DNA from: Bacteroidota bacterium
Lineage (GTDB): Bacteria; Bacteroidota; Bacteroidia; Palsa-965
DNA length: 64,000 nucleotides
Assembly (NCBI GenBank): GCA_020402865.1
Contig: JADBYT010000010.1
Coordinates: 62,001 to 126,000 of the forward strand
Direction: 5' to 3'
In this document: piece by piece, positions 31,580 to 55,340 of the stretch
How positions within the stretch are numbered: the stretch's first letter is position 1
Layout of the letters: every line of letters begins with the position of its first letter
Program-made: the position numbers and the translations under genes
Notes under the pieces: model-generated
Told to the model about the DNA's origin: nothing
The model's database searches: none
The model's input: the letters and a program-made list of their open reading frames with translations, nothing else

Positions 31580-33006
31580 ACACCGGCGGGTTGAGCTTCT
31601 TTCTTTTCAAGGCCGCGCACTTTCACAATCTGTGCAAGCATGTCGGCTTCGGCCACTACTTTGTTGTTTACATACGTAGTGCCTTTCATGTGGCAGAGTC
31701 CGCGACGGATCGGGTCAATCAGTTCGAGCCTGAACACGCACGAATCGCCGGGCACCACTTTCTGCTTAAACTTCACGCCTTCCATTTTGAGGAAATACGT
31801 TTGATAGTTTTCCGGATCGGGCACGGTTTTCAAACAAAGCACGCCACCGGTTTGCGCCATGGCTTCCACCAGCAGCACGCCCGGCATAATCGGCTCGTCG
31901 GGAAAATGGCCTTGTGTCCAGAACTCAGTCATGGTAATGTTTTTCACACCCACCACATGCGTTTCGCTGATCTCGGTAATCTTATCAACCATGAGGAAGG
32001 GCTGACGATGCGGAAGAATTTTCATGATCTCACGCACATCAAAAATAGCCGGTGCCTGCGGATCAAAATTCGGTTCTGCTTTTTTGCTGCGCTCTTTCTT
32101 CACCAGCGCCTTGAGCTTGCGGGCAAAGTCCACATTGCCGGCGTGGCCCGGACGTGCGGCCAGAATATGCACTTTCATGTGTACACCCACCAGCGCCAGA
32201 TCGCCCACAATGTCGAGCAGTTTGTGGCGGGCGGGCTCGTTGTAGTAATGCAGCTGCGTATTGTTGAGTACGCCACGGCCTTTTACTTCCACATCGGGCT
32301 TGTTGAATACTTTGCGCAGGTGGTCGAGTTTTTCATCAGGCAGTTCGCGATCCACCAGCACAATGGCATTGTCCAGATCACCGCCTTTAATAAGATTATG
32401 CTGCAGCAGCGCCTCAAGTTCGTGAATGAACACAAACGTGCGGCAGCGGGCTATGTTCTCGTTAAACTCGCTCAGCTTGTACATCGAGGCGTGCTGCGTA
32501 CCGAGGATTTCGCTGTTGTAATCAACCATTACCGTTACGCGGAATTCATCCTGCGGCACGGCCAGCATTTCCACCTTCTTTACCGGATCTTCGTAGGTGA
32601 GGTTTTCCTTCAGCTCGAAGTAATAACGTTCTGCATCCTGTTCCACAAAGCCCACGGCTTCGAGCGCCTGCACAAACGGCCATGCGCTTCCGTCGATAAT
32701 GGGTACTTCGGGTCCGTCAATATCCATGAGCACGTTATCGAGGTCGCAACCCATAAGAGCGGCCAGTGCATGCTCCACGGTGCTTACGCGGCCACCGTTT
32801 TTCTCAAGCGTGGTGCCGCGTGCGGTGTCGGTTACATTGTCCACATCAGCCTCAATAACCGGTTGTCCGGGAAGGTCGATGCGGCGGAATTTAAAGCCGT
32901 GATTTTCGGGGGCGGGATGAAAGGTGAGGTTTACGGGTTTTCCGGTGTGTAAACCTACGCCCGAAACGGTGCATGATGCCTGCAGTGTGCGTTGCTTAAT
33001 GCTCAT
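31576..33006 (-). CDS. lpxC/fabZ: LpxC-FabZ bifunctional fusion
   Basis: This 476-residue protein joins two enzymes. Residues about 1-300 are LpxC, the zinc UDP-3-O-acyl-GlcNAc deacetylase, with ligand motifs VEHALAAL and HKLLDIVGDLALVG. Residues about 325-476 are FabZ, the 3-hydroxyacyl-ACP dehydratase, with LPHRQPFLMVDK and the catalytic His and Glu in HFPDEPIMPGVLLVEAMAQ. The fusion is typical of Bacteroidota and places lipid A commitment and fatty-acid dehydration, which compete for hydroxyacyl-ACP, in one polypeptide. It follows lpxD by 21 nt and overlaps lpxA by 4 nt. Confidence 0.96.
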   Translation of the reverse strand: MSIKQRTLQASCTVSGVGLHTGKPVNLTFHPAPENHGFKFRRIDLPGQPVIEADVDNVTDTARGTTLEKNGGRVSTVEHALAALMGCDLDNVLMDIDGPEVPIIDGSAWPFVQALEAVGFVEQDAERYYFELKENLTYEDPVKKVEMLAVPQDEFRVTVMVDYNSEILGTQHASMYKLSEFNENIARCRTFVFIHELEALLQHNLIKGGDLDNAIVLVDRELPDEKLDHLRKVFNKPDVEVKGRGVLNNTQLHYYNEPARHKLLDIVGDLALVGVHMKVHILAARPGHAGNVDFARKLKALVKKERSKKAEPNFDPQAPAIFDVREIMKILPHRQPFLMVDKITEISETHVVGVKNITMTEFWTQGHFPDEPIMPGVLLVEAMAQTGGVLCLKTVPDPENYQTYFLKMEGVKFKQKVVPGDSCVFRLELIDPIRRGLCHMKGTTYVNNKVVAEADMLAQIVKVRGLEKKEAQPAGV

Positions 33007-33027
33007 GAAGTATAGTGTGAGAGGCTG

Positions 33028-34065
33028 TTATTTTCCGTTGAGGTTGAGAAGCTTTTCAATGGCTTTTACTTTGTCGCTGAGCGCGGGCAGCCCGCGGAAA
33101 AGCACATACGAACGTTTGTAATCGCCGATGCCGAAAGCGGGTGAGCCCTGCATAATTTCGTTATCGGCAATGTGTGCGCCAATGCCCGACTGTGCGGCAA
33201 TTTTAACACCGTTGCCAATGTTGAGGTGGCCCACAATGCCCACCTGCCCGCCAATCATGCAATTTGCGCCTATCCTGGTGCTTCCCGCCACGCCGGTTTG
33301 TGCGGCGATTACGGTGTTTTCACCAATTTCCACGTTGTGGGCAATCTGTATGAGGTTGTCGAGCTTTACGCCGCGACGGATAATTGTAGAGCCGAGTGTG
33401 GCGCGGTCAACCGTAGTGTTGGCGCCTATCTCCACGTTGTCTTCAATAACCACATTGCCAATGTGCGGTACTTTCTGGTAGTTGTTGGTGCTGTTGGGCT
33501 GAAAGCCGAATCCGTCGCCGCCGATGATGGCACCGGCCTGAATGATGCAGTCGTTGCCCACCACACAGTCGTGATAAATGCGCACGCCGCTGTGCAGCAA
33601 GGTATTGTTGCCAATACGTGCGGCTTCGCCCACAAATACATGGGCGTGTATGCGGGCATTATCGCCAATTACGGCATGGTCGCTGATTACGGCCAGCGGC
33701 CCGATGTACACGTTGTTGCCAATTTTGGCCGAGCCCGACACTACTGCCGAAGCATCCACGCCCGTTTTGCTGAAACGGAACTGGTTGTAAGCATCCAGCA
33801 ATTGGGCAAACGCCTGGCGGGCATCGGCCACACGAATCAGCGTAAGCGTTTCGGGCAGGGTCTGTTCGGGCGTAAAATCGGCGTTTACAATGGCAATGGT
33901 GGCGCGGGTGGTGTAGATATGCTGCGCATACAACGGGTTCGAGAGAAAAGTAATGGAACCCGGCTCGCCCTCTTCAATTTTGGCGAGTTTGGAAACGGCT
34001 GCACCGGCATCACCTTCTACAGTGCCACCGGTAAGTGCCGCAATTTGTTCGGCTTTAAATTGCAT
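33028..34065 (-). CDS. lpxD: LpxD: UDP-3-O-acylglucosamine N-acyltransferase
   Basis: This 345-residue protein has normal LpxD length. The N-terminal domain ([14 protein letters not shown], residues 1-100) is the uridine-binding part. The left-handed beta-helix follows, with [11 protein letters not shown] carrying the catalytic His and [20 protein letters not shown] near the end. A short C-terminal helix closes it. It adds the N-linked acyl chain in lipid A synthesis. It is the first gene of the lpxD-lpxC/fabZ-lpxA unit, with a -7 element 5 nt before its ATG. Confidence 0.95.
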
Positions 34066-35200: not shown

Positions 35201-36343
35201 TTACTTCTCCCCCAAGTATTCCCTTACCGAAACCGGAACGTTAAGCTCTTTCACACCCGCCACACTATCCGCATAATACCGGTAATACAACTCACCGAGA
35301 TGCGGAAACTCCTCATACACATGATCGGGCGCAGCACCCATTTTTTGCTGTGCAGCTGACGGCGATAATTGCCACTCGCTGCTCAACCGCATGAGCGATG
35401 GTTCCATGAAACTGATGTACAGCAATTCCATAAACGTGTGGTCTTGTGTTTTCGAATAGTCGAGATCGTCTTTCAGCGTGTTGCGGTATTTATCGAGATT
35501 GCGCTGAAACGCATTGCGCCAAGCCGTAAATTTATCATTGCTCAGCATTCCGTTTACAGCGGTATTGGGCACAAACAAACCTGCAATATGTATTTCATGG
35601 CACCAGAGGCATTTTGCAGGCTTACCGGCTTCGCCTAAATGTTTGGGCGAACCAGCTATTAAATTGCCTTTTGCATCATATACCGAAAACCGCAACTGCC
35701 CGTTGGGCATAATGTCGAATGCCTCGAAAACATTGGCGCTGAAAGTCCCCTTCTCCAAATCGCCCTCGCTTTCCACAGCCAGAAAAGCAAAATTGAGGAC
35801 ATCGCTGGTATCACCATTAAACTCCACCAGCCGGTGATGCGCGGCAACTGCTGAACGCGTTACGCCAAACTGCAATGGTTTTTCGAGTTGGTGTTTTTTA
35901 ATAAACGCATTCAGCGTTTTTTCGGCTCCGGTTATGGCATAATAATTTTCAGAAACTCCAATCAGCAAGACTACAAACCTTGATAAATCAATGCTCCCGG
36001 CTTTTCGGTATTCTTCGCCTGTTTTTATTTTCGTGATAATGGAATCGAGCACAGTTAATGCCGGTGCCGAAAAACCAAGCTGCGAAAGATCAAGCACAAA
36101 GCCAAGCGAATCGTTAACCGGAATGGCTTTATCGAAACTTCCTTGAGGCAAATTTGCACCGAGAAATGAAAATGTCCAGCGCAAGCCTTCGCGTACCTGG
36201 GCCCAATGTTCATCAGGATAAGCCTTCATCCATTTCAAACGCAGGGTATGATCAGGCACTGATGCGTTGGATACAGGCTGCGCACAATGCACAGCAGCAG
36301 CAACCACACAAAGCAACATAAAAGCCAGATACCTGTTTTTCAT
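35201..36343 (-). CDS. Exported protein with one CxxCH haem-binding motif
   Basis: This 380-residue exported protein has a signal sequence ending near VVAAAVHCAQ; the Cys there could be a weak lipobox or simply precede a signal peptidase I site. A single c-type haem motif, CLWCH, lies at residues 245-249, followed by EIHIAGLF. No second motif is present. The rest is helical, with no family I can name. Its start overlaps the GT87 stop by 4 nt (ATGA), making it the last gene of a five-gene polysaccharide operon, an odd place for a putative cytochrome. The haem motif could be coincidental. Confidence 0.65.
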   Translation of the reverse strand: MKNRYLAFMLLCVVAAAVHCAQPVSNASVPDHTLRLKWMKAYPDEHWAQVREGLRWTFSFLGANLPQGSFDKAIPVNDSLGFVLDLSQLGFSAPALTVLDSIITKIKTGEEYRKAGSIDLSRFVVLLIGVSENYYAITGAEKTLNAFIKKHQLEKPLQFGVTRSAVAAHHRLVEFNGDTSDVLNFAFLAVESEGDLEKGTFSANVFEAFDIMPNGQLRFSVYDAKGNLIAGSPKHLGEAGKPAKCLWCHEIHIAGLFVPNTAVNGMLSNDKFTAWRNAFQRNLDKYRNTLKDDLDYSKTQDHTFMELLYISFMEPSLMRLSSEWQLSPSAAQQKMGAAPDHVYEEFPHLGELYYRYYADSVAGVKELNVPVSVREYLGEK

Positions 36344-37920
36344 TTCAGCTGATGAAACGGAAATTTACTGCGCGGCATTGCGTAAAGGTGATATAACCCT
36401 GCCCCGCGACCTGCATCGCTCATAAAAATAACAGAATCGTTGCGACAAACAATATTTTTAAACAATACATTACCCGGCCCTGCATACTCAGGTTTTGCTG
36501 GTAATTTCACCTCACAGTGTGCTGCGGCTGCAAGCGGGAGAGTAATCTTTTCTTTACCCGCTTTGTTGTAAACAGTAGCTCGAAGTGCATTGCCTTCAAT
36601 CATATAATCAGTTACATAATGCTGAGAAATTGTGCGGCTGAAATAAGCAAACTGCGGACCACTGTGCGGTAAAAAGACTTTGACAATTTGCACAGCGGCA
36701 AAACTCAACAACAGCAATGCAGCTACCGCATTCATGCGCACACCGCGCTCAGGGCGGGCAGCAGTAAGGGCAAACAGCAGCACAAGCGCATAAAGTTTGA
36801 AATGCTGTAATGCAACCGGTGCGTGTTCAAACATACGGGGCGGAACCGCACAAATAATCAGCAACAAAAGCATTTGCATAACCGGTGCTGCTCCGCGGCG
36901 ATGCAAGATGAAAAACGGCGGCAAAATGAGCAGCGAATAGGTAGAGAAATAGCCCGAACCGAGAAACAAAAACAACAGCAGCAATACAAACGCCCCGGTT
37001 TCGCCAGACTTCTGAATACCGCTTCTGAAAAGCGCAACAGCCAGCAATGGCAGTAAAACCGCCAGATTAATAAGCACAATTATTGCCGGCGAAATTGTAA
37101 AAACAGGATTCGGATTGAGCACAGCATCATACTGCCCCAGATGCCGCAACAACACGATAAGCCCGTGATAACTGGCCGAATACGGATCATTAATATATCC
37201 GTCTGCAATACGCGGAAGCAAATGCAAATAATACATTTCAAACACCTCCGTGCCATAAAGCCCAATCGCTATTCCGGTAATAGCTGCGTACACTGCCAGA
37301 AAAGACCAAAACACATTCCACTGCCTGCGCACCAGAAAGTAAAGAAGCGCCACTACGGGCGTAACTTTCAAAATCACAGCCAGTGCCAGCCATAAGCCGG
37401 TAAGTATAGCTCGTCCACGCAAATTCGCCAGCCAGGCCGCAATAAGCAACGATGCGATAAACAAGTAAGTTTGACCGAAAGCAATATTCTGATAAAGCGG
37501 ATAAGCCATTGCTGCCAGCAACAGCATACTGCGCGGAAAGCTCAGTGCCGCATACTGCCGGAGCAGCCTGTAAAGCATAAACGCGAAACAGCAAACGCCC
37601 AGCACATTAAATATACCACGCGCCAGGAAAGGATCAGGCACATAGCTGAATGGTTTATAAAACAAGGGCGTTTGCGGTGGAACCGTAGTATGATTCAGAA
37701 ACAAATCCTTCCCGCCGGCCATACTCACCGCTTCATTAAACCGATGCACATCATACACCAAACGGTAATCGCTTTTTTGCATGAGTGCCGCGCCGTAGTA
37801 GTAGTTACCAAAATCGGAAAGTGGTTTATGGTAACAGTAATATACTGCCGCCAGCCCGAGCAGCAGCACACAGAGCGGAAGCAGAACAGCGGTATTGTTT
37901 TCTTTCTTTTCCTGAATCAT
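36340..37920 (-). CDS. GT87-family (DUF2029) membrane glycosyltransferase
   Basis: This 526-residue protein has about 10-12 membrane helices and matches the glycosyltransferase 87/DUF2029 pattern of polyprenol-phosphate-dependent mannosyltransferases. An early periplasmic loop follows the first helix (KPLSDFGNYYYGAALM), with a YDVHRFN segment, and TPLFYKPFSYVPDPFLARGI follows. Such enzymes use a lipid-linked sugar to extend or decorate an envelope glycan. It overlaps both neighbours by 4 nt. Its donor and acceptor are unknown. Confidence 0.75.
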   Translation of the reverse strand: MIQEKKENNTAVLLPLCVLLLGLAAVYYCYHKPLSDFGNYYYGAALMQKSDYRLVYDVHRFNEAVSMAGGKDLFLNHTTVPPQTPLFYKPFSYVPDPFLARGIFNVLGVCCFAFMLYRLLRQYAALSFPRSMLLLAAMAYPLYQNIAFGQTYLFIASLLIAAWLANLRGRAILTGLWLALAVILKVTPVVALLYFLVRRQWNVFWSFLAVYAAITGIAIGLYGTEVFEMYYLHLLPRIADGYINDPYSASYHGLIVLLRHLGQYDAVLNPNPVFTISPAIIVLINLAVLLPLLAVALFRSGIQKSGETGAFVLLLLFLFLGSGYFSTYSLLILPPFFILHRRGAAPVMQMLLLLIICAVPPRMFEHAPVALQHFKLYALVLLFALTAARPERGVRMNAVAALLLLSFAAVQIVKVFLPHSGPQFAYFSRTISQHYVTDYMIEGNALRATVYNKAGKEKITLPLAAAAHCEVKLPAKPEYAGPGNVLFKNIVCRNDSVIFMSDAGRGAGLYHLYAMPRSKFPFHQLK

Positions 37921-38891
37921 TGTGTGATGCGGCTGTACCAGTAATGAAAAACGGGCGGCGTGAAACGTTTGAGCACCCGCTTTACCCGCGCACGAAAAGG
38001 CTGCTTTGACATGATGCGGAACAATGTTTCTGTTTCTGCCGTTGAAAGTGGTGTATGCGTGTGCAGCATGTGTTCAGACAAACTGAAATAGCCCAGCGCT
38101 GCAAGCATGATGGCTGTAGATAACGGCTGTATTACGGATTCATCATTTGCAGGAATATACACGGCATCGCCACCTGTTCCAATACGCGGCGATTCGCTTA
38201 CCCGTCCGGCAGTAATACGGTTCAGTGAATCGTGCACGTCTGTGTATATGCGCAAATCAACCAGCATATACCCGCAGTTTCGCATCCACAGGTCAATATC
38301 CGTAAAACAGGGTTGCCCCTCATACACCGGCACGAACATCACTTCGGTGAAAACAATGCCTACCTGCTTACGCTGCAGTAAACCGGCAGCACCGTGCAGA
38401 ATGCGCAGTTCACTGCCCTGCGTATCGAGTTTAAGAAAGTCGATGTAACTGATATTGGCCGAAGCCGCAAAATTATCAAGTGTTTCGGCCTGTACTTCTG
38501 CTTCTGCCACCCGCTCCATACTTTTCACCCACTTCGCACTATCTTTCATCCGGCCGGTGTAGCGGCGCATATTCTCAGGGGCTGACCGAAGCAGCGAACT
38601 CATACTGGGATGAAGTGCCTGATGAAATTGGGCTTTGCCTGTTTTATCGGAAAGCGCAATATCAAAAACAGCTGAATTCCGGAACGGAGCCGAAGCATAC
38701 TGCTTTCGCAGTGTATCCACCGATTGTGTATCGGGCTCAAACGCATACATATTCATATATGCATGCAGCTGCGGCATAAGCGTAAAGCCGTTTCGCGCCC
38801 CGGCATCCACCACGATCAGCGAACGGCCGTCCAGCAATGTATCAAGTTGCGACCACGCCATAATTCTTTTCAGGATTACGGGTTTGCTCAT
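37917..38891 (-). CDS. FkbM-family methyltransferase
   Basis: This 324-residue protein has an FkbM-type SAM-dependent methyltransferase domain. The SAM-binding opening is LIVVDAGARNGFT, followed by YAFEPDTQSVDTL and FDIALSDKTGKAQF, and later FLKLDTQGSELRILHGA. FkbM enzymes O-methylate sugars or polyketides; here a surface sugar is likely from context. The start is uncertain: ATG 38891 overlaps the preceding ligase gene by 50 nt, ATG 38861 by 20 nt. Its stop overlaps the GT87 start by 4 nt. Confidence 0.82.
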   Translation of the reverse strand: MSKPVILKRIMAWSQLDTLLDGRSLIVVDAGARNGFTLMPQLHAYMNMYAFEPDTQSVDTLRKQYASAPFRNSAVFDIALSDKTGKAQFHQALHPSMSSLLRSAPENMRRYTGRMKDSAKWVKSMERVAEAEVQAETLDNFAASANISYIDFLKLDTQGSELRILHGAAGLLQRKQVGIVFTEVMFVPVYEGQPCFTDIDLWMRNCGYMLVDLRIYTDVHDSLNRITAGRVSESPRIGTGGDAVYIPANDESVIQPLSTAIMLAALGYFSLSEHMLHTHTPLSTAETETLFRIMSKQPFRARVKRVLKRFTPPVFHYWYSRITQ

Positions 38892-40320
38892 CCACGAACA
38901 CAATCACAGCCATACTGAAAAATACGAGTGAGGCCATTTTATCATCTTCCATAAATCCATTGAAAATACCATGTACGAAATAGGTAAAAAACCCAAGCAA
39001 TGCGGCCAGCAGTATTTTCCGGTGCCGCGAAACAATATTACGGCGAAGCACATTCAACCCTTTCATTACAACCCCCACAAACAACGCAATATGAAGCAGC
39101 AGCCCCACCCAGCCTGCCTCGGCAAAAAACGCCAGATAATCAGAATGCGCATGTCCTTTGGTGCCACTAAATGTACTGGTATATGTCATGTCTTCGCGCA
39201 ACTGAAACAGACCGTAATAATACTTATATGTACGGGGGCCGTAGCCAAACACCGGCTTATCAAACCCCATACGTATGGCGCATTTCCAGCGGTTGATACG
39301 TTCTTTATTCGATGCGTCGGTTTCGAAATTGGTAATCGATTTCAAATGCTGCCCCACATCATCACCAGGCTTTCCGCTAACAGCTTCTCTTGTGGCAATT
39401 TTTTCATAAATCCAGTCGCTGGTCAGAACCGTAATGCCGCCAGCCAACAGAAGCAGCAACAGGAAAACAAACCCCGTAGTACGCAGTTTTACCAGCACCA
39501 GCAAGCCCAGCGAGGCCGCAAGACTAAGCCATGCCGCACGCGAGTATGATAAAAATTCAACAATGAGCAGTGCGATAAGCACACATACCCAGATGTATTT
39601 TCCCTGCCGCGTTTCGCCTTCTTCTCTTTTAGTAAGCGCCTGTAAAGCCACAAAGGGAATCACAAATGCAAGGCAGGCTCCAAATACGGTATGATCGTTG
39701 TAAAATGGCTTAGGCATGTGGTAGGCCGTGCGGGGTGAAAAACCCAACTGACCATGACTGATAAGCGTAACAATAATCGGGAATATCATTCCCAGCAGGT
39801 AAAGAATATAAAATTTCTCGGGCTTCTTTTCGCTGCGCATCCATTGCAGCGCAAGGAAGAAAAACACACCTGCATAACACGATCGTATAAATGTATATTT
39901 TAACGAAACCAGCTTCAACTCACTGGTTATGGTGCAGGCGGCAAGCCAGAGCAGTTCGAACATCAGCAGCCTGCTTACAGCATTATTCCACAAATCTTTC
40001 CGTAATCCGGCAAAACCGGCTGATGTAGCCACCAGCAGAATCATCAGCAGCCCGATCATAGGCTCAGTGGGCAACTGTATCTCGGTTTCCTCCATGAGTG
40101 CCACACCTACCGAAAGCGGCACCATAAAAAATAAGAGTTTGATTAACTGCTGACGATGCAACAGAAAAAAACCGAGTACAAAAGCTATAAATCCTAAAAA
40201 AAGCGAGGTATAAATCCACACATATCGCCCCGTAGCTATCGAATACATCGAAACTGCGCTCAGCAATATGCAGATTGCGAAAGCCCAGTATTCAAATCGA
40301 ATGGCGCGAAGCTGTTTCAA
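38842..40320 (-). CDS. O-antigen ligase / polymerase family protein 2
   Basis: This 492-residue polytopic protein is a paralogue of the ligase/polymerase at 23146-24615. Matching segments include KPFYNDHTVFGACLAF, KPVFGYGPRTYKYYYGLFQL, GHAHSDYLAFFAEAG and TYFVHGIFNGFMEDDK. The Wzy_C periplasmic loop with its conserved His is intact. It lies 3 nt after the Wzz-like gene and overlaps the FkbM gene, so it acts in the second polysaccharide module. Whether it polymerises or ligates cannot be told from the sequence. Confidence 0.85.
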   Translation of the reverse strand: MKQLRAIRFEYWAFAICILLSAVSMYSIATGRYVWIYTSLFLGFIAFVLGFFLLHRQQLIKLLFFMVPLSVGVALMEETEIQLPTEPMIGLLMILLVATSAGFAGLRKDLWNNAVSRLLMFELLWLAACTITSELKLVSLKYTFIRSCYAGVFFFLALQWMRSEKKPEKFYILYLLGMIFPIIVTLISHGQLGFSPRTAYHMPKPFYNDHTVFGACLAFVIPFVALQALTKREEGETRQGKYIWVCVLIALLIVEFLSYSRAAWLSLAASLGLLVLVKLRTTGFVFLLLLLLAGGITVLTSDWIYEKIATREAVSGKPGDDVGQHLKSITNFETDASNKERINRWKCAIRMGFDKPVFGYGPRTYKYYYGLFQLREDMTYTSTFSGTKGHAHSDYLAFFAEAGWVGLLLHIALFVGVVMKGLNVLRRNIVSRHRKILLAALLGFFTYFVHGIFNGFMEDDKMASLVFFSMAVIVFVDEQTRNPEKNYGVVAT

Positions 40321-40323
40321 GAT

Positions 40324-41244
40324 CTAATCGCGTTTGCGGATTTTGAGAAGCACATAACGGCCATAGAGCATTGCCAGAATCATAAACAACGAACCAAAGA
40401 AGCCGATTGCAATATTAAATCCTTTAAGCGGATAGCTTGGTTCATAGATCGGATAGGCCGGATCAATATTGTAAAATCCGGGAATGGGGCGGGCAGATGT
40501 ATTGCGTGCTGTTTCGTATTTTGTACGCATATCATTTAGCTGCGCATTCTCGTAAATAAAACGTTGAGTAAGTATTTCCTTTTGCGTACTTGATGAATTG
40601 CTGTTGCCGTTAATAACCAGATTCTCCAGCAGCGGATAATTACCGTGCTCGTCTTTACGCAAATCGCCAATCATACGGGCCAGGCTGTCAACCACCTGTT
40701 GTTTGGCCACGTATTCTTTCCTGAACGCTTCTTCAGCAAGACGTGTATTTACCCTGTACATTTCCTGACGCATTCGTCCGCTGCATTCTACAATATAATT
40801 TACAATTCTGGCCGAAAACTTCGGATCGTAGGTTTCGGCTTCAATTACAATTGACATAATGTTTGTGCGGTTGGCAAAAATGCGCTGCCGGTACTTATTC
40901 GTAAGTTTCTGCGGCCAGATATATTCCGAAGTATCAATTTTGAAATACGTCACCAGATCAAATTTCTTTACCACCGAATCTTTCAGTTTTTCGGAGTTGA
41001 GAATTTGCAGCATACGATCGGCCTCAGTATCATACCCAAGTTTAGGATCATCAACTGTTTTTTCAAGTGAAATATCGTAGGGTATAAAAAATGATGCTTT
41101 TGCCCGGTAACGTTCTTTCATAAACATTGTCGCCACAAAAGCCAGCACCGAACAACACAACACCGTTATTGCAATTAGCTTCCAATAACGAAAATACATG
41201 GCGAGAACGGACGAGTGAACTCGCTCTTCTTCAAATACATTCAT
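40324..41244 (-). CDS. Wzz-like chain-length determinant protein 3
   Basis: This 306-residue inner-membrane protein has an N-terminal helix (LIAITVLCCSVLAFVATMF), a long periplasmic helical domain with ILNSEKLKDSVVKKFDL, and a C-terminal helix beginning after SYPLKGFNIAIGFFGSL. It is the polysaccharide co-polymerase type without a kinase domain and is a paralogue of the two proteins at 21176-23156. It heads a five-gene operon: Wzz, ligase, FkbM, GT87 and the CxxCH protein. Confidence 0.8.
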   Translation of the reverse strand: MNVFEEERVHSSVLAMYFRYWKLIAITVLCCSVLAFVATMFMKERYRAKASFFIPYDISLEKTVDDPKLGYDTEADRMLQILNSEKLKDSVVKKFDLVTYFKIDTSEYIWPQKLTNKYRQRIFANRTNIMSIVIEAETYDPKFSARIVNYIVECSGRMRQEMYRVNTRLAEEAFRKEYVAKQQVVDSLARMIGDLRKDEHGNYPLLENLVINGNSNSSSTQKEILTQRFIYENAQLNDMRTKYETARNTSARPIPGFYNIDPAYPIYEPSYPLKGFNIAIGFFGSLFMILAMLYGRYVLLKIRKRD

Positions 41245-43690: not shown

Positions 43691-45712
43691 ATGTCGCTAC
43701 CTGTTCCTGCGTTTACCATAGCGCGCATACTCACATCGGTACTGTTGTTTTTCACCATCTGGTGCGCGAAACTCAATTATACCTTCAGCGATTCGCAGCT
43801 TACGTTACTTACTTCCCAGTCGATTGCGCAGCACGGCAGTATCAATTTATACCGCTATAAAGTTTCTTCCACACCTGAGCAGTTTGCAAACGGGACTTGG
43901 AAATATACCAACCGCCAGCGCAACGAAACCATTTATTATTCTTATCCGCTGGGCAGCGCATTTATCAGTGTGCCTGTGGTGGCGGCAGCCAATGTATTCG
44001 GGCTCGACATGAGCATTGCGGCGCATGATGCGTGGCTGCAAACGTGGCTGGCCGCGATTACGGCAGTATTCATTTTTCTGCTTACTCACCGGCTGCTTGC
44101 GTTGCTTACTGGTGAAATGATTGCTTTTACAGTAGCCGTATTCTTTGCCTTCGGCACTGCGTATATGAGCAGTGTGGGTACGGCACTGTGGAGTTTCAAC
44201 TACGAAATTATTGCCGTACTGCTGTTGGTACACATCATTGTAAAAGCCGAACTGAATGGCCTTGAAAAAGTGCGGCCAGCCCTACTGGCTACACTCGTAT
44301 TTATGGCCTGGATCTGCCGGCCTTCGGCAATCGGACTGGCGGCATTAGTTACAGCATGGGTATTCTGGCGCAGCCGCAAAAACATATTTGTATATGCCGG
44401 TGTGCTGCTGGCCTGGTTCCTGCTTTTTGTCCTTATTTCTGAGCGCACGTTCGAATTGTTTGTACCTCCTTACTATAATCCGTTTTTCTGGACAAGCTAT
44501 TCGTTTGCAAATTCCTCCATCACCACACGACTGTTGGCAATGCTTTTCAGTCCGGCGCGGGGATTGTTTGTATTTACGCCGGTTCTGCTCTTTGCCTTTG
44601 GCGGACTATTCAATGCATCGTTGCGAAAAAACCGTTTCTATCTGGCGGCCGCAGGCTGGCTACTGCTTCAGGTTGTACTGGCGGCCACACAGCGGAACTG
44701 GTGGGGCGGCTGGTGTTTTGGGCCCCGCCTGCTTACCGATGCCTTGCCACCACTGGCTGTAATGCTGGCATTAACCATACACGAATGGCAACTACAGGGT
44801 AAACTCAGGCGCTTTATTCCCGGTCTGGCCGTGTTTGGATTTTTTAGCGTATTTATTCATACCGCACAGGGCATGTATAACCCGCAAACACTGCTCTGGA
44901 ACAATTCGCCAAATATTGATGATATGCCCGGTTACTATATCTGGAACTGGAAACACAGCCAGCTTTTTGCCAGCGAAACCGGCAATAAAATAAAGCAACG
45001 TGAAATTGAACTCGGCGGGGAACTGGATCCGTATCTGAAACTTATCAAACCCGGCAGCCACGTGCTTTTCGGTGAGCCTGACAATATCACGCGAAATATT
45101 TTCGAGCGGTGGAATTATTCATCCGATACAAAATTCCACAATAATCTGTACAGCATTGAAAGTGCCGGAATTGATACATTCTGGATTACACCGAAAAACT
45201 ACGAGCAAATACGCAGTATGGATTATTACAGCATCTTGCAGCCACAAAACCAGCCCACGCTTGGAAAATGGCTTCAGGCGCATACCACGGAAACCATTCT
45301 GCTCAGCATTCGCGACGAAGGCATGAACAGCCTTTCAGAAGAAACAAAAGCATACCTGAAAAGCATCGGCGCATCGCCCGACAGTTTGAAGTTCAGACAG
45401 GGCTACACGCTTATCATCAGACAGGGGAAATTAGCTGCCGAAAAATTCGAGCAAAACGACTCTGCTGCTGTCAACCTTCAAACCGGCGCATACCATGTAG
45501 CTCTGCGTTCGTGCGGCAACAACAGCGGAAACTGGTCGGTGATTAAAGTAAACGGCACCGAACACTCGCTCAATGCCCGCGGATTTAATGCGGTGGTTGT
45601 GGATGAAAAAGGTAAAGTCATTCAGTCAACCCGTTTCGATACGCATGCCTATGATGCGCAGGAGCAAAAAGTATTTGCAGTTACACGAAACGTGAATCAG
45701 AAACGGAAATAA
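43691..45712 (+). CDS. Polytopic membrane glycosyltransferase-like protein (GT39/ArnT-like layout)
   Basis: This 673-residue protein has about 10-12 membrane helices in the first 390 residues and a large soluble C-terminal domain (about 400-673). The first extracytoplasmic loop has FSDSQLTLLTSQSIAQHG and YSYPLGSAF, resembling the catalytic loop of polyprenol-phosphate-dependent (GT-C) enzymes. A family-specific motif is not certain, and it may belong to an uncharacterised GT-C group. The soluble tail contains a small beta domain. It overlaps the convergent MBOAT gene by 16 nt at the stop codons. Confidence 0.68.
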   Translation: MSLPVPAFTIARILTSVLLFFTIWCAKLNYTFSDSQLTLLTSQSIAQHGSINLYRYKVSSTPEQFANGTWKYTNRQRNETIYYSYPLGSAFISVPVVAAANVFGLDMSIAAHDAWLQTWLAAITAVFIFLLTHRLLALLTGEMIAFTVAVFFAFGTAYMSSVGTALWSFNYEIIAVLLLVHIIVKAELNGLEKVRPALLATLVFMAWICRPSAIGLAALVTAWVFWRSRKNIFVYAGVLLAWFLLFVLISERTFELFVPPYYNPFFWTSYSFANSSITTRLLAMLFSPARGLFVFTPVLLFAFGGLFNASLRKNRFYLAAAGWLLLQVVLAATQRNWWGGWCFGPRLLTDALPPLAVMLALTIHEWQLQGKLRRFIPGLAVFGFFSVFIHTAQGMYNPQTLLWNNSPNIDDMPGYYIWNWKHSQLFASETGNKIKQREIELGGELDPYLKLIKPGSHVLFGEPDNITRNIFERWNYSSDTKFHNNLYSIESAGIDTFWITPKNYEQIRSMDYYSILQPQNQPTLGKWLQAHTTETILLSIRDEGMNSLSEETKAYLKSIGASPDSLKFRQGYTLIIRQGKLAAEKFEQNDSAAVNLQTGAYHVALRSCGNNSGNWSVIKVNGTEHSLNARGFNAVVVDEKGKVIQSTRFDTHAYDAQEQKVFAVTRNVNQKRK

Positions 45713-48593: not shown

Positions 48594-50090
48594 GTGAACG
48601 TATTACTTTTCAACCCGCTTGCAACGCCCACCAAACCTCGCATTCCGAACAGTGTACTGCAGGTTGCCTCGTCAATTGACCACAGCCACCAGTGGCAGAT
48701 TGTGGACGGCAACATTGATCAGGATCCCTGGCCGGTAATCCGCAAACACCTGCAAACAGGGAAATTCAGCTATTTTGCCTCTACCGTAATGCCCGGCCCG
48801 CAACTCCGGCAGGCCATTCCCATATCAAAAGCCATCCGAAACGAATTCCCCGGTATTACCATAATCTGGGGCGGATACTTCCCGTCAAACCATCCGAAAC
48901 CGGTGCTTGAAAGCGGCTTTGTAGATTATATTGTAAATGGCCCCGGCGACAGGGCTTTTCCTCAACTCCTCAATTATCTTGAACACGGCGGCGATCTTGA
49001 TGCAATTCCCAATCTGATATACCGCCGCAACGAAAAAATAACGCATACCCGGAAAGACGAAATCTACGATCAGGATACGCTGCCGCCATTTCCGTATGAA
49101 AAACTAAACGCACAATACCCGATGAGCCGGTATCTGGCCAAAACGTATCTCGGCTCAAAAACCATTGCCTATCACAGCAGCTTTGGTTGTCCGTTTACCT
49201 GCTCGTTTTGCGCAGTTGTACCTATCTATAACGCACGATGGAAAGGTAAATCAGCCGAATTGATATACAAGGATATTAGTTTTTTGCGCGAAAAATTTGG
49301 TGGCAATGCGGTGGAATTTCACGACAATAATTTCTTCGTTTCGGAAAAACGCACTGCCGAATTTGCCAAGCTCGTTATGAACGACAATATCGTATGGTGG
49401 GGCGAGGGGCGAATTGATACCATTGACCGCTACAAGGATGAAACGCTTGAACTGATGAGGAAGTCAGGGTGCAAAATGATTTTCTTCGGCGCCGAAACAG
49501 GCAATGATTCCATGCTGAAGAAAATGGACAAAGGCGGCACACAAACACGCGAGCAGATTTTGCGCTTTGCCAAACGCCTGCGCAAATTCGATATCATTCC
49601 CGAATACTCATTCGTACTCGGCTTTCCGGCCGATACGGAAGAAGAAGTAAACCAACTCATCGAGCAGGACATTGCCTTCATCCGCGAAATAAAAGAAGCC
49701 AATCCCGATACGGAAGTAATTATTTACGTCTATTCGCCGGTGCCTACCGAAGACAGCGAACTGTTTAAAAAAGTATCAGCCACCGGTTTCCGTTTTCCGG
49801 AAAAACTGGAAGACTGGATTAATGCAGAATGGGAGAATTTCGATTTGCGCAAAAATCCGCTCACACCATGGCTGAAGCCCTACATGATTGATAAAATACG
49901 TCATTTTGAAACGGTGCTGAACGGCTATTACCCTACCGTTTCTGATGTACGCCTGAACAACTGGCAGCGCAAAACAATACGTACACTTAGTGCGCTGCGC
50001 TATAAGCTCAAGGTATATCGCCATCCCTACGAAATAAAAGTGCTTCAGAAAATGTGGAAATACCGTCAACCTGAAACCGAAGGATTTTGA
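48594..50090 (+). CDS. B12-binding-type radical SAM protein 1
   Basis: This 498-residue protein has an N-terminal cobalamin-binding-like Rossmann domain (about residues 1-165) and a radical SAM domain (about 190-410) with C199, C203 and C206 in FGCPFTCSFC. It has no DxHxxG cobalamin-His motif, like several BchE-type enzymes. A second feature is MIFFGAETGNDSMLKKMDKG. The start is a GTG, which gives the usual MNVLLFNPLA opening; no ATG lies near. It begins a six-gene unit and its TGA overlaps the next ATG by one base. Substrate unknown. Confidence 0.86.
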   Translation: MNVLLFNPLATPTKPRIPNSVLQVASSIDHSHQWQIVDGNIDQDPWPVIRKHLQTGKFSYFASTVMPGPQLRQAIPISKAIRNEFPGITIIWGGYFPSNHPKPVLESGFVDYIVNGPGDRAFPQLLNYLEHGGDLDAIPNLIYRRNEKITHTRKDEIYDQDTLPPFPYEKLNAQYPMSRYLAKTYLGSKTIAYHSSFGCPFTCSFCAVVPIYNARWKGKSAELIYKDISFLREKFGGNAVEFHDNNFFVSEKRTAEFAKLVMNDNIVWWGEGRIDTIDRYKDETLELMRKSGCKMIFFGAETGNDSMLKKMDKGGTQTREQILRFAKRLRKFDIIPEYSFVLGFPADTEEEVNQLIEQDIAFIREIKEANPDTEVIIYVYSPVPTEDSELFKKVSATGFRFPEKLEDWINAEWENFDLRKNPLTPWLKPYMIDKIRHFETVLNGYYPTVSDVRLNNWQRKTIRTLSALRYKLKVYRHPYEIKVLQKMWKYRQPETEGF

Positions 50091-50788
50091 TGGATGCGTT
50101 TCAACGATTGTTTGCCAGTTACGTTACCAAACCGCTGCTCAGGCGCCGGCTTCGATATACTTCGCACTATACATTCGGAAATCTGAATCTCGAAATTGCC
50201 CCGGGGGTGTTTCATCCGCGCTACTTTTTTAGTTCCGAATACCTTGCCGAATTTACACAGCGACTTGATCTGACAGGGAAAACAGTAGCCGAGCCCTGCA
50301 CCGGCAGCGGACTCATCGGGCTGATTGCACGGGAAAAAGGTGCTCATGTGAGCTGTTCGGATATTGATGAACGGGCAGTAAATTGTGCCGCAAAAAATCA
50401 CACACTCAATACTAAACATTTTCCCGAAACCGGCTCCTGGCGGGTTTTTCATTCTGATCTGTTCGAAAAATATCCGCCGCAGCTGCGTTTTGATGTAATT
50501 CTTGTAAATCCCCCCTATTTTTTTAAACCACAGGAAAAACCCGAACAACTTGCCTGGAATTGTGGAAGTGAGGGCGAGTTTTTTGAAAAATTGTTTCTGC
50601 AGCTCCCCGCCCGCCTGCGTAAGAACTCACAAGTATTCATCATTCTGGCCGAAAACTGCGAAATTGATCGAATAATTAAAATTGCTGGGAAATACGGCTT
50701 TAGCCTGAATCGGGTAGAAGAACGCAAAATCAAATGGGAAAAAAACTATATTTTCGTAGCTGAGCATAGAACCAAAACCCATGAATGA
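50090..50788 (+). CDS. SAM methyltransferase with NPPY motif
   Basis: This 232-residue protein is a class I SAM-dependent methyltransferase. The SAM site is VAEPCTGSGLIGLIA, followed by VSCSDIDERAVNCAA and a catalytic VNPPYFF at N140-Y143. The NPPY signature is typical of enzymes that methylate an amide or exocyclic amine nitrogen (PrmC/HemK and N6-adenine groups). It lies between a radical SAM gene (1-base overlap) and a nucleotidyltransferase gene (8-nt overlap), so the substrate may be something other than release factor or DNA. The ATG at 50090 was preferred to a TTG one codon earlier. Confidence 0.85.
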   Translation: MDAFQRLFASYVTKPLLRRRLRYTSHYTFGNLNLEIAPGVFHPRYFFSSEYLAEFTQRLDLTGKTVAEPCTGSGLIGLIAREKGAHVSCSDIDERAVNCAAKNHTLNTKHFPETGSWRVFHSDLFEKYPPQLRFDVILVNPPYFFKPQEKPEQLAWNCGSEGEFFEKLFLQLPARLRKNSQVFIILAENCEIDRIIKIAGKYGFSLNRVEERKIKWEKNYIFVAEHRTKTHE

Positions 50789-51704
50789 GTTGCAGAAATC
50801 CATTCTGCGTACACTCGCGTATTACGATGTTTTCCGGTTTCCGCTGAAAGATTACGAACTGCTTACGTTCGGCACTTTCACCGGAACCAAAGACGATTTA
50901 CAGCGCGAATTGAATGCATTGCTTATTACCGGCATTGTACGTGAAATGCGTGGCTATTATTTTCTTGCCGATACCTGCACTTCACATGTGGAAGCCCGCG
51001 AAGTAAATCAGATCCGGGCCGATGCCGCACTAAAAAAGGTAAAACGTTTCAGCACACTCATTTCCCGCTTCCCGTTTATTGAAGCCGTTTGTATTTCAGG
51101 TTCATTCTCCAAAGGCGTACTCGACCGCTACGGCGATGTGGATTATTTCCTCATTGCAAAACCCGGGCGGCTCTGGATTGCACGCACATTACTTATCCTT
51201 TTCAAAAAAATATTCCTTTTCAATTCGCGCAGGTATTTTTGCATCAATTATCTGATCGACAGCAACTCGCTCGAAATTCCGGATAAAAATATTTTCACCG
51301 CCACCGAAATCCTCACGCTTATACCCATGTCGGGCGGAAAAATGTACGCTGCATTTATCCGGCAGAATACCTGGGCCAAAAGCTATTTACCCAACCGGCT
51401 TTTACATACTGCAAATACTATTCCGGCCACCGCCCCCAAAGGAATACTGTCGCGCCTGATTCAGTTTCTGCTTAAAGGAAAGGTTGGTGACTCGATTGAC
51501 GAATTCTGTTTTCGCATTACCTACAACCGTTGGAAGAAAAAGTTCCCGCACCTGAAAGAAGAAGAGTTTGAGCTTAATCTGCGTTCGCGCCGCAATGTAT
51601 CCAAACATCACCCGCGCGGCTTCCAGTACAGGGTACTAAGCACCTACCGGCAAAAACTTAACCACCTGATGGTAGAGGATGAACCCAAACTGGTTGTGGC
51701 CTGA
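50781..51704 (+). CDS. Nucleotidyltransferase-fold protein with N-terminal winged helix
   Basis: This 307-residue protein starts with a winged-helix-like region (LRTLAYYDVFRFPLKDYELL, residues about 8-75). A DNA polymerase beta-type nucleotidyltransferase core follows: ISGSFSKG with Gly107-Ser108, then DRYGDVDYF with Asp119 and Asp121. These are the GS and DxD positions of an active site. The third acidic residue is not certain. Relatives occur with radical SAM genes in other envelope clusters, where they are uncharacterised. It overlaps the methyltransferase gene by 8 nt and is followed by a 42-nt gap. Confidence 0.78.
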   Translation: MNELQKSILRTLAYYDVFRFPLKDYELLTFGTFTGTKDDLQRELNALLITGIVREMRGYYFLADTCTSHVEAREVNQIRADAALKKVKRFSTLISRFPFIEAVCISGSFSKGVLDRYGDVDYFLIAKPGRLWIARTLLILFKKIFLFNSRRYFCINYLIDSNSLEIPDKNIFTATEILTLIPMSGGKMYAAFIRQNTWAKSYLPNRLLHTANTIPATAPKGILSRLIQFLLKGKVGDSIDEFCFRITYNRWKKKFPHLKEEEFELNLRSRRNVSKHHPRGFQYRVLSTYRQKLNHLMVEDEPKLVVA

Positions 51705-51746
51705 AAGCCTAAATCTGAGTAAATAACCTGTGCAGCATCGCCATAC

Positions 51747-53207
51747 GTGAAGTTACTTTTTACACATTCGTACTTTCTGCGTTTCGATCCCAAACAATGG
51801 GAAACAGCCACACCTTACCCTCCCCTGGCTACCTTGTATGCCGCGGCTTACCTGCGCCAGAACGGGCATCATGTACTGCTGCATGATGTGCAGTTTGAAG
51901 AAACTCCCGATGCCGTTGAACACACACTTGCCGCAGAAAAACCGGATGTGCTGGTTATTTACGACGACGGCTTCAATTACCTTACCAAAATGTGCCTCAC
52001 CAACATGCGCGAGGCCGCCTGGAAAATGCAGCAGCTGGCTAAAAAATACGGCTGCAAAGTCATCGTTTCAAGTTCCGATTCTACCGACCACGCAGAAAGC
52101 TACCTCAAGCACGGTGCCGATTTTATTATTGCCGGTGAAGCCGAACAAACGCTGCTTGAACTCATCACCGCGCTTGATAAAAACGAGCCCACGCAACATA
52201 TCAAAGGACTCATCTACCTCGATGGCGAACTGCAACGTACAGCCAAACGCGAAGTAATCCGCGACCTCGACACTCTTCCCCTGCCTGCGTGGGATCTCGT
52301 AAACATTACACCCTACCGCGAAATGTGGCTCAAAAACCACGGCTACTTTTCGCTCAACATGGTTACCACACGCGGCTGTCCGTACAAATGCAACTGGTGC
52401 GCCAAACCTATTTACGGCAACCGATACAACACGCACTCGCCCGAAAATATTGCGGGCATGATTGAGCAGCTGCAGCAAAAATTCGGCTTCACTCACATCT
52501 GGTTTGCCGATGATATTTTTGGCCTTAAACCCGGATGGCTGCGCGATTTCAGCGCCGCCGTGCTGCAACGCAAACTAAAATTCAGTTACAAAATTCAGTC
52601 GCGCGCCGATTTGCTTTTGCAGGAAGACAACATCCGCCACCTTGCTGCCTCCGGCTGTGATATGGTGTGGATGGGCGCCGAAAGCGGATCGCAGAAAATT
52701 CTCGATGCCATGGACAAAGGCACAAAGGTGGAACAGATACACGAAGCCACCCGGCTGCTCAAAAAACACGGCATCAAACCCGCATTCTTCCTGCAGTTCG
52801 GCTATCCGGGCGAAACGATGGACGATATTAAAAAAACCATCGCTATGGTAAACGAACTTTTGCCTTACGACATCGGCATCTCCGTTTCCTATCCCCTGCC
52901 CGGCACCGAATTTTACGAACGCGTAAAAGCCGAACTAAAACACAAAACAAACTGGACAGACAGCGATGAGCTTGCACTCATGTTCAGCAACACCTATCAG
53001 CCCGCGTTTTACAAGCAGCTGCACCGTTATGTGCACAAGTCGTACCGCAAACACCAGTCGCTGCATCTGCTTCGGGCGCCTGTAAAAAGTTTGCGCAGCC
53101 GTGCAGGCTTGCGGCGCATGCTGGCACTGCCATACTATCACTTCTCGGCACTGGCCGAAAAACGCAAACTCATAAGCACCGAACCCGATGCAGCACGCAG
53201 CCTTTAA
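51747..53207 (+). CDS. B12-binding-type radical SAM protein 2
   Basis: This 486-residue protein has an N-terminal cobalamin-binding-like domain (about residues 1-150) and a radical SAM core with C211, C215 and C218 in RGCPYKCNWC. FADDIFGLKPGW and WMGAESGSQKILDAMDKG are further family segments, and GYPGETMDDI follows. It lacks a DxHxxG motif. The start is GTG, giving MKLLFTHSYF. It is a paralogue of the third radical SAM protein of the cluster. The gene for a methyltransferase begins 20 nt before its stop. Confidence 0.87.
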   Translation: MKLLFTHSYFLRFDPKQWETATPYPPLATLYAAAYLRQNGHHVLLHDVQFEETPDAVEHTLAAEKPDVLVIYDDGFNYLTKMCLTNMREAAWKMQQLAKKYGCKVIVSSSDSTDHAESYLKHGADFIIAGEAEQTLLELITALDKNEPTQHIKGLIYLDGELQRTAKREVIRDLDTLPLPAWDLVNITPYREMWLKNHGYFSLNMVTTRGCPYKCNWCAKPIYGNRYNTHSPENIAGMIEQLQQKFGFTHIWFADDIFGLKPGWLRDFSAAVLQRKLKFSYKIQSRADLLLQEDNIRHLAASGCDMVWMGAESGSQKILDAMDKGTKVEQIHEATRLLKKHGIKPAFFLQFGYPGETMDDIKKTIAMVNELLPYDIGISVSYPLPGTEFYERVKAELKHKTNWTDSDELALMFSNTYQPAFYKQLHRYVHKSYRKHQSLHLLRAPVKSLRSRAGLRRMLALPYYHFSALAEKRKLISTEPDAARSL

Positions 53208-53973
53208 CGAGTATGCGCCGCTGTATGATGCGCATTTTACGCACAGCAAAACCGGCATGGCACAACGCAACCGCGTGTACAGCCTGCTCGCGCGTGAATT
53301 GAAAAAAGACTGCACCGTGCTCGAACTCAACTGCGGCACCGGACAGGATGCACACTGGCTTGCCCGGCAAGGCTGCACCGTGTTTGCTACCGATGCGGCC
53401 GAAGGCATGGTACACACAGCACGCACCAAAAATGCTGCGGAAAAAAATGTATCGGTAAGCATGGCCGATTTACGCATGCCCGAACAACTCCCGCAACAGC
53501 AGGTCGATCTGGTGTTTTCAAACTTCGGCGGGCTCAACTGCCTCTCGCCCGATGAACTCAGACAGCTTGCGCCCGCACTTGCCAAACGGCTGACACCTGA
53601 CGGAAAAGCAGTACTGGTAGTAATGGGGCGTGGCTGCTGGTGGGAAAGATTCTACTTCCTGCTCAAGCGCGATGCGCGCCGCACACGCCGCAACAGCAAA
53701 ACAGCAGTAAAAGCCATAATCGAAGGCCGAGAAGTAAACACGTGGTATTACACCCCGCGAGAATTTGCCTCATTCTTCCAGCCTCACTTCCGAATTAAAA
53801 ATGCGGCCGCGGTGGGCCTGTTTGTTCCACCTTCATACCTCGACCCGTTTTTTGCACGCAAAAGCTTCTTATTTTCAATACTTGCTGCCCTCGACCGTTT
53901 GCTTGCGCGCGGCAGCTGGTGCGCCAATGCAGCCGATCATTTTCTCATTACACTTGAACCAAGCGACGTATGA
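53188..53973 (+). CDS. Class I SAM methyltransferase (UbiE/BioC-like)
   Basis: This 261-residue protein is a class I methyltransferase. The SAM-binding stretch is VLELNCGTGQDAHWLARQG, with an Asp-containing second strand, VFATDAAEGMVHTA, and a FSNFGGLNCLSPDELRQL post-motif region. This resembles the UbiE/BioC group, which methylates carbon or oxygen of small molecules. It overlaps the previous radical SAM gene by 20 nt and the next one by 4 nt (ATGA), so the three are translationally coupled. Substrate unknown. Confidence 0.84.
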   Translation: MQHAAFNEYAPLYDAHFTHSKTGMAQRNRVYSLLARELKKDCTVLELNCGTGQDAHWLARQGCTVFATDAAEGMVHTARTKNAAEKNVSVSMADLRMPEQLPQQQVDLVFSNFGGLNCLSPDELRQLAPALAKRLTPDGKAVLVVMGRGCWWERFYFLLKRDARRTRRNSKTAVKAIIEGREVNTWYYTPREFASFFQPHFRIKNAAAVGLFVPPSYLDPFFARKSFLFSILAALDRLLARGSWCANAADHFLITLEPSDV

Positions 53974-55340
53974 AAGTACTGCTCACTCATGGCTACTTTC
54001 TGGCCGATGACCCTAAGGAACAGGCCATCATGAAACCGTATGTACCGCTGGGCATTCTGTACATCTCGGCCTGGCTCGAAAAACACGGTATTGAAAATGA
54101 AGTATTCGACAGCACCTTTCAAACTTTCGAACTTCAGCTAAATAAAATACGCAGCTTCCGGCCCGATGTAATTGCCGTGTACACCAACCTCATGACCAAA
54201 CTCAATGTACTTCGGTTGGTGAATGCAGTGAAAAACGATGCGCAGCTCAAACACATTCCCGTGGTGCTTGGTGGTCCCGAAGTGCGCAACCACGCCGAAA
54301 AATTTCTCACCCACGGCGCCGACCTGCTGGTGGTGGGCGAAGGCGAGGAAACCATGCTTGAGGTGGTAAAAGCCATTGGCGAAACAAAAGAAATTCCGCT
54401 GCATATTGATGGCACTGCCGTGTGGCACAACGGTGCGCTGAAAATGAATGCCGAACGCAAACTCGTGCGCAACATCGACGAGCTTCCGTTTCCAAACCGC
54501 CACAAGGTTGATCTGCATCTTTACCTCAATGCGTGGAAAGAACGGCATGGCTACAGCATGGTATCGGTAAGCACCATGCGCGGTTGCCCTTACACCTGCA
54601 AGTGGTGCAGCCGCGCCGTGTATGGCGGCACTTACCGGCGCAGAAGTCCTGCGCTGGTGGTGGATGAACTCGAAAGCATTCAGCAAAACTACAAGCCCGA
54701 TAAAATCTGGTTTGTGGACGATGTGTTTACCATCAGCCACAAATGGCTCAAGGAATTTGCCGACGAAATTGAACGCCGCCAGCTCAGGGTAAGCTACGAA
54801 ATCATTTCCCGCGCCGATCGCATGAACGAAGAAGTAATTGAACTTCTGCGCCAGAGCGGCTGTTTCCGTGTGTGGATCGGCGCCGAAAGCGGCTCGCAGC
54901 GTATCATTGATGCAATGGATCGCCGGGTTGATGTGCAGCAGGTGCGCAACATGATTAAGCTGAGCCGCAAACAAGGCATCGAAGCCGGCACCTTCATCAT
55001 GCTCGGCTATCCCGGCGAAACCCGCGCAGATATTAAGGAAACCATCCGCCACCTTGTAGAGTCGGCACCCGATCAGTACACCATCACCATTGCCTATCCC
55101 ATTAAAGGCACACGGCTGTACGAGGAAGTGGAAGATAAATTCACCACCACACTCAACTGGGCACAATCCACCGACCGCGAAATCGACTTCCGGCGCACTT
55201 ACAGCCGCAAGTATTACGAGTATGCCGTGCGCTGGGTGTACAATGCCGTGGGCGCCTCACGTACACAAAATCCGCTGCGCAAAATGTATCTCACCGGCAA
55301 AGGCGTGTTCGCGCAGCTGCTCATGCAGTGGAATGCGTAA
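53970..55340 (+). CDS. B12-binding-type radical SAM protein 3
   Basis: This 456-residue protein has an N-terminal cobalamin-binding-like domain (about residues 1-140) with HIPVVLGGPEVRNHAEKFL and LVVGEGEETML. The radical SAM core follows, with C206, C210 and C213 in RGCPYTCKWC, and VWIGAESGSQRIIDAMDRR and LGYPGETRADIKETI further on. It is a paralogue of the protein at 51747. It ends the six-gene unit, with 219 bp of gene-free DNA after it in which I see no clear terminator. Substrate unknown. Confidence 0.87.
   Translation: MKVLLTHGYFLADDPKEQAIMKPYVPLGILYISAWLEKHGIENEVFDSTFQTFELQLNKIRSFRPDVIAVYTNLMTKLNVLRLVNAVKNDAQLKHIPVVLGGPEVRNHAEKFLTHGADLLVVGEGEETMLEVVKAIGETKEIPLHIDGTAVWHNGALKMNAERKLVRNIDELPFPNRHKVDLHLYLNAWKERHGYSMVSVSTMRGCPYTCKWCSRAVYGGTYRRRSPALVVDELESIQQNYKPDKIWFVDDVFTISHKWLKEFADEIERRQLRVSYEIISRADRMNEEVIELLRQSGCFRVWIGAESGSQRIIDAMDRRVDVQQVRNMIKLSRKQGIEAGTFIMLGYPGETRADIKETIRHLVESAPDQYTITIAYPIKGTRLYEEVEDKFTTTLNWAQSTDREIDFRRTYSRKYYEYAVRWVYNAVGASRTQNPLRKMYLTGKGVFAQLLMQWNA

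Follow-up and report, generated by a model that had tools for sequence, protein, structure and literature searches.

A nucleotidyltransferase and radical SAM gene module of Bacteroidota associated with surface polysaccharide loci

Six genes lie close together on the plus strand at positions 48594 to 55340 of the 64,000-nucleotide stretch of DNA from a Bacteroidota bacterium analyzed here, which we call the window. The first gene, R1 (48594 to 50090), encodes a class-1 cobalamin-type radical SAM protein according to Pfam and NCBIfam searches, and it is followed by M1 (50090 to 50788), a PrmC/MTS-type methyltransferase with an NPPY motif whose start is an ATG, with a TTG at 50087. NT (50781 to 51704) carries a GSxSKG...DxD motif and is predicted to combine a winged helix with a pol-beta-type nucleotidyltransferase domain, and after it come R2 (51747 to 53207), another class-1 cobalamin-type radical SAM protein, M2 (53188 to 53973), a Methyltransf_25-type methyltransferase, and R3 (53970 to 55340), a paralog of R2. 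An earlier note on this DNA, made from the sequence alone, had placed all six open reading frames correctly, with overlaps of 1, 8, 20, and 4 nt and one gap of 42 nt. Its description of two unlike methyltransferases agrees with Pfam, which assigns the NPPY-containing M1 to an MTS/PrmC-like family and M2 to Methyltransf_25, both being class I enzymes, and the paralogy it had claimed for R2 and R3 is clear from a BLAST score of approximately 311 bits, versus 61 bits between R1 and R2. R1 is distant from both of the other radical SAM proteins by BLAST. An Rfam search of the window found no riboswitch and no other Rfam element. A role in anti-phage defense was considered and rejected, with PADLOC returning generic methyltransferase and radical SAM matches alone (mad2 at 52 to 57 bits and PDC-M51A at 31 to 55 bits) and none for NT.

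The Pfam Radical_SAM domain was found in R1, R2, and R3, and the CxxxCxxC motif that the earlier note had reported in all three is invariant in 15 R1, 32 R2, and 24 R3 sequences. The cobalamin-binding-like N-terminal domain it had also described is recognized by the Pfam B12-binding model above cut-off in R2 (35.8 bits) and R3 (57.0 bits), while R1 is borderline, with 31.0 bits against a cut-off of 32.1 in the first Pfam search and 33.2 bits in the genome search. Each protein has the same order of domains, with a Rossmann B12-type domain at the N terminus and the radical SAM barrel after it. Absence of a DxHxxG motif is normal in class-1 cobalamin radical SAM enzymes (PMC13331322). A profile search found seven B12-binding domains in the window genome, three of them in the six-gene run, which makes the use of cobalamin by this organism plausible. 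We describe R1, R2, and R3 as putative cobalamin binders on the basis of sequence and fold only; AprD4 has a cobalamin-type domain yet is not known to need cobalamin, so the domain alone is no proof.

None of the three reached the cut-off of a named NCBIfam family, their best scores being 109 bits for R1, 140 for R2, and 160 for R3 versus cut-offs of 481 to 600. R2 and R3 share their superfamily and domain order with the BchE, HpnJ, HpnR, PhpK, and ladderane-cluster families, but since they score 95 to 160 bits against cut-offs of 360 to 650 they are not members of them. R1 is 41% to 67% identical to 14 relatives. The predicted model of R2 (mean pLDDT 82) matches class-1 enzymes over its full length, the best structural match being AprD4, which acts on an aminosugar (Z 25.0), followed by MgmA (23.2), OxsB (23.2), and TsrM (22.9).

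NT has no match in Pfam or NCBIfam. Its earlier designation as a GS...DxD nucleotidyltransferase fits the conservation of the GSxSKG...DxD motif, in which G107, S110, K111, D119, and D121 are invariant in 43 of 43 relatives. An AlphaFold2 model (pLDDT 94) places a winged helix at residues 1 to 68, followed by the predicted nucleotidyltransferase domain. Residues 79 to 285 match ANT(4') moderately (Z 8.2, 114 aligned positions, rmsd 3.1), and the Foldseek matches listed for the model were of the ANT/MNT type, also moderate, with E values of 0.015 to 0.1. The winged helix could also mean that NT has a regulatory role.

A scan of GTDB species genomes for NT gave 46 loci, to which a second genome collection added more, and the gene order around NT was read by means of a profile model for each of the six families. 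Sixty-three loci had enough downstream sequence, counting the window and with some genomes possibly present in both collections. In 48 of these 63 loci the gene directly 3' of NT, on its own strand, is R2. Both R2 and M2 are near NT in 49, and R2 and M2 together with either R1 or R3 in 44, while the full set of six is found in 10 and an NT relative with no R2 nearby in another 10. Gene order, which the earlier note had singled out for comparison across Bacteroidota genomes, is conserved, but a complete set of six genes is one version of the unit.

Stronger evidence comes from a phyletic census of 247 genomes of the Bacteroidota phylum that are at least 90% complete. NT was found in 19 of these, and the genomes with R2 are precisely those 19, with both genes on the same contig and always within approximately 6 kb; with the two genes adjacent in most cases, NT is genetically tied to R2. 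The carriers span 18 genera and 11 families. With strict cut-offs, 12 of the NT-R2 genomes have R1 and 3 have R3, and neither occurs in any other of the 247. Identical sets of 19 in 247 would have a chance probability of approximately 1e-28 if genomes were independent, which they are not. Divergence is correlated between NT and R2 (r 0.67), R2 and M2 (0.58), R1 and M1 (0.68), and R2 and R3 (0.85), with 0 of 2000 permutations as high, and part of this correlation comes from the shared ancestry of the hosts. Among the named genomes in which the GTDB scan found NT are Roseivirga, Flavobacterium jejuense, F. haoranii, Aureispira, several Ignavibacteria, and a MAG of the Thermoanaerobaculales. Gene order in the 63 loci and the census together define a core of NT and its obligate partner R2, usually with the near-core M2, a second module headed by R1 in which M1 mostly follows R1 directly, and R3 as an optional member. 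The idea in the earlier note that the six genes work together thus holds for a unit, given the conserved order, identical phyletic sets, and correlated divergence, but not for a fixed set of six.

Several loci depart from this pattern. NT without a recognized R2 nearby occurs at L020, L032, L044, L049, L053, L056, L059, L076, L079, and L080, some of which have a weak M2-like gene, and these homologs perhaps represent a divergent subfamily of NT whose partner is a different protein. At L099 (G002:C17; also L003) R2 appears to be divided between two reading frames that overlap, and R3 is incomplete, which would reflect either a recent break or an assembly error. The Thermoanaerobaculales MAG (L054) has NT, R2, R3, R1, and M2 together, along with a gene of the GT4 type and one for a SPASM radical SAM protein; this occurrence in another phylum reflects either inter-phylum transfer or a binning error.

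The module has genes for surface polysaccharides in its surroundings. In the window a tight run of five genes on the minus strand (35201 to 41244) encodes a Wzz-like chain-length protein (40324 to 41244), a Wzy_C O-antigen ligase/polymerase (38842 to 40320), an FkbM methyltransferase (37917 to 38903), a GT87 glycosyltransferase (36340 to 37920), and a CxWCH protein with an N-terminal signal-like stretch (35201 to 36343). A pair of MBOAT and AlgX-like O-acetylation genes lies between this run and R1, and lipid A genes are found at 30803 to 34065. The earlier note had stated that no scaffold or carrier gene was visible, and in doing so overlooked the minus-strand run, whose homologs adjoin the module elsewhere. 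The Wzz-like protein is 46% identical to the product of L041:6739-7677, which adjoins R1 and passes the Pfam Wzz cut-off, and a Wzy_C homolog also adjoins R1 at L041, where the Wzz and Wzy_C genes are on the opposite strand. An FkbM homolog is directly upstream of R1 in L019, GT87 homologs are upstream of R1 in L015-L018 and L025, and homologs of the CxWCH protein accompany GT87 upstream of R1. In L025 the order is GT87, a Wzx-like protein with approximately 9 TM segments, the CxWCH protein, FkbM, and R1, with overlaps or near-contact throughout. Altogether, Wzx, Wzz, Wzy, GT87, or FkbM genes are next to the module in L015-L019, L025, and L041.

A Pfam survey of 144 non-redundant operon neighbors in other genomes found 19 GT4, 8 GT87, 6 Wzy_C, 5 GT9, and 5 GDSL matches, as well as 4 GT2, 4 ABC transporters, 4 epimerases, and 3 FkbM methyltransferases. 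For comparison, the entire 4.9-Mb window genome has 25 GT4 (PF00534) matches, a background of one genome and one family. Scans of single loci also revealed PMT_2-like enzymes, a polysaccharide deacetylase, a Polysacc_synt flippase, and a SPASM radical SAM protein. Bacteroidota commonly have polysaccharide genes; the neighboring genes differ among genomes, and some loci have ordinary housekeeping neighbors.

The earlier guess of an envelope product gains support on its sugar side, since glycosyltransferases, Wzy, Wzz, Wzx-like flippases, and FkbM adjoin the module across genomes and a run of their homologs is present in the window. Because the module travels with surface-polysaccharide genes, it probably serves to make or modify a cell-surface building block that is sugar-like and unusual. 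More specifically, the six genes may be an enzyme cassette for producing or altering such a building block in a surface polysaccharide of the Wzx/Wzy type, similar to an O-antigen or a capsule, a proposal that we regard as about evenly balanced and that draws on the linkage and co-occurrence of NT and R2, their intact motifs, and the linkage to polysaccharide assembly. The same cassette might instead make an envelope lipid or lipid head group through radical chemistry like that of hopanoids, ladderanes, or tetraethers, with no glycan residue involved. Against the ladderane-cluster radical SAM model R3 reaches 147 bits, and against HpnJ 139 bits, and the lipid A genes are nearby, but these scores are far under the respective cut-offs of 360 and 578, and the 25 top Pfam families among the 144 neighbors include no acyl carrier, ketosynthase, or prenyl family, so that we consider a lipid product improbable. 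Less probable still, and in our view quite unlikely, is that NT is a LicD-like phosphotransferase passing an amino-alcohol phosphate, perhaps methylated, to a glycan, with the other enzymes of the cassette supplying that group. Glycans are substrates of LicD-type enzymes, and a methylated amine could come from the two methyltransferases, but the NT motif is of the GSxSKG...DxD type with no LicD Pfam match, and the structural matches listed for NT are of the ANT/MNT type, with LicD absent among them. Phosphorylcholine transfer to glycans is the subject of PMC11982090.

If the cassette does tailor a surface glycan, NT would attach a nucleotide to a sugar-like precursor, which would thereby be activated or gain a handle that the radical enzymes can use. 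We propose this nucleotide-handle step tentatively and by analogy, the precedent being fosfomycin synthesis, in which a cytidylyl group is the handle on which Fom3 acts (PMC8158854). R2 (and R3) and R1 would then carry out radical C-C bond chemistry on the building block, either C-methylation or rearrangement, M1 and M2 would perform ordinary N- or O-methylation, and the neighboring glycosyltransferases, flippase, and Wzy enzymes would bring the building block into the glycan. In the Fom1/Fom3 system transient cytidylylation is followed by cobalamin radical SAM C-methylation, and the module resembles it in having a nucleotidyltransferase with a cobalamin-type radical SAM partner. It differs from that system in that NT is predicted to be of the pol-beta/ANT type, in that the module has two methyltransferases besides its two or three radical SAM proteins, and in its context of polysaccharide rather than phosphonate genes.

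The residue below the cobalt may bear on which radical reaction is to be expected. It lies in the loop after strand 3 and is Asn186 in OxsB, Arg69 in TsrM, and Trp76 in TokK (PMC13331322), and Trp75 in CysS (PMC12846815). In remote profile alignments Asn77 of R2 (32 of 32 sequences) and Asn73 of R3 (23 of 24) align with OxsB Asn186, while R1 has Met66 at this position (15 of 15). Among 26 module-free Bacteroidota genomes, one had a clear class-1 relative, which is too few to give a background for the cobalt-side Asn. Since an Asn is also found at this site in the non-methylating OxsB, plain C-methylation by R2 and R3 should not be assumed, and the alignment hints that they are perhaps not methylases. 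R2 and R3 might accordingly be read as rearranging or redox enzymes, similar to OxsB or AprD4, acting on a sugar or a nucleotide-bound sugar, with methylation carried out by R1 at most. OxsB, which contracts a ring in oxetanocin synthesis, and AprD4, an aminosugar diol dehydratase, are among the nearest folds to R2 and share the class-1 fold over its whole length, but so do the methylases MgmA and TsrM equally well; OxsB and AprD4 are approximately 18% to 19% identical to R2 and have other genomic contexts. The cobalt-side alignments are remote, the methylases compared were TokK, CysS, and TsrM, and whether the residue predicts reaction type is described as an open question in the review that lists it (PMC13331322). 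We therefore view rearranging or redox roles for R2 and R3 as possible but doubtful. Rather speculative is a combined scheme in which NT tags a sugar with a nucleotide and R2 and R3 rearrange or ring-contract rather than methylate it, which would give a new class of branched or contracted surface-polysaccharide sugar.

The protein classes involved are all known. The earlier note knew of no pathway with this set, and we found no published pathway with the radical SAM, nucleotidyltransferase, and methyltransferase combination in open-access full text, and the same literature did not yield the conserved combination, the NT-R2 pair, or the tie to polysaccharide loci. Wzx/Wzy-dependent O-antigen and capsule loci of Bacteroidota have Wzz, Wzy_C, GT4, GT87, FkbM, and flippase-like neighbors in common with the module, but we did not find the cassette described there in open-access papers. 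Most of what is known of cobalamin-type radical SAM enzymes comes from antibiotics, hopanoids, chlorophyll, and RiPPs. The cassette is placed in polysaccharide loci of many Bacteroidota families, and a role in glycan tailoring, if true, would add bacterial surface glycans to the range of radical C-C bond chemistry; if the ring-contraction or rearrangement reading were true, this phylum would make glycan building blocks by a radical route. The exact co-occurrence of NT and R2 in this sample leads to a short, testable question, namely whether the product of NT is the substrate of R2.

The CxWCH family, found beside GT87 genes in polysaccharide loci, has one heme-c-like C-[LIM]-W-C-H motif and includes the window protein (35201 to 36343, minus strand), L015:4512-5648, L017:5490-6626, L025:4272-5456, and L036:19222-20493. 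It has no Pfam or NCBIfam match, and neither the CxWCH protein nor the Wzx-like protein had a useful match in sequence searches of the PDB. A further radical SAM/SPASM protein is encoded near the module in four loci (L026:5112-6194, L022:6396-7478, L033:19444-20532, and L054:12246-13538). Beside the MBOAT/AlgX pair in the window, a plus-strand gene at 43691 to 45712 encodes a multi-span membrane protein of 673 aa that ends in an ILEI (FAM3-like) domain and looks like a putative GT-C-type enzyme with a lectin-like tail.
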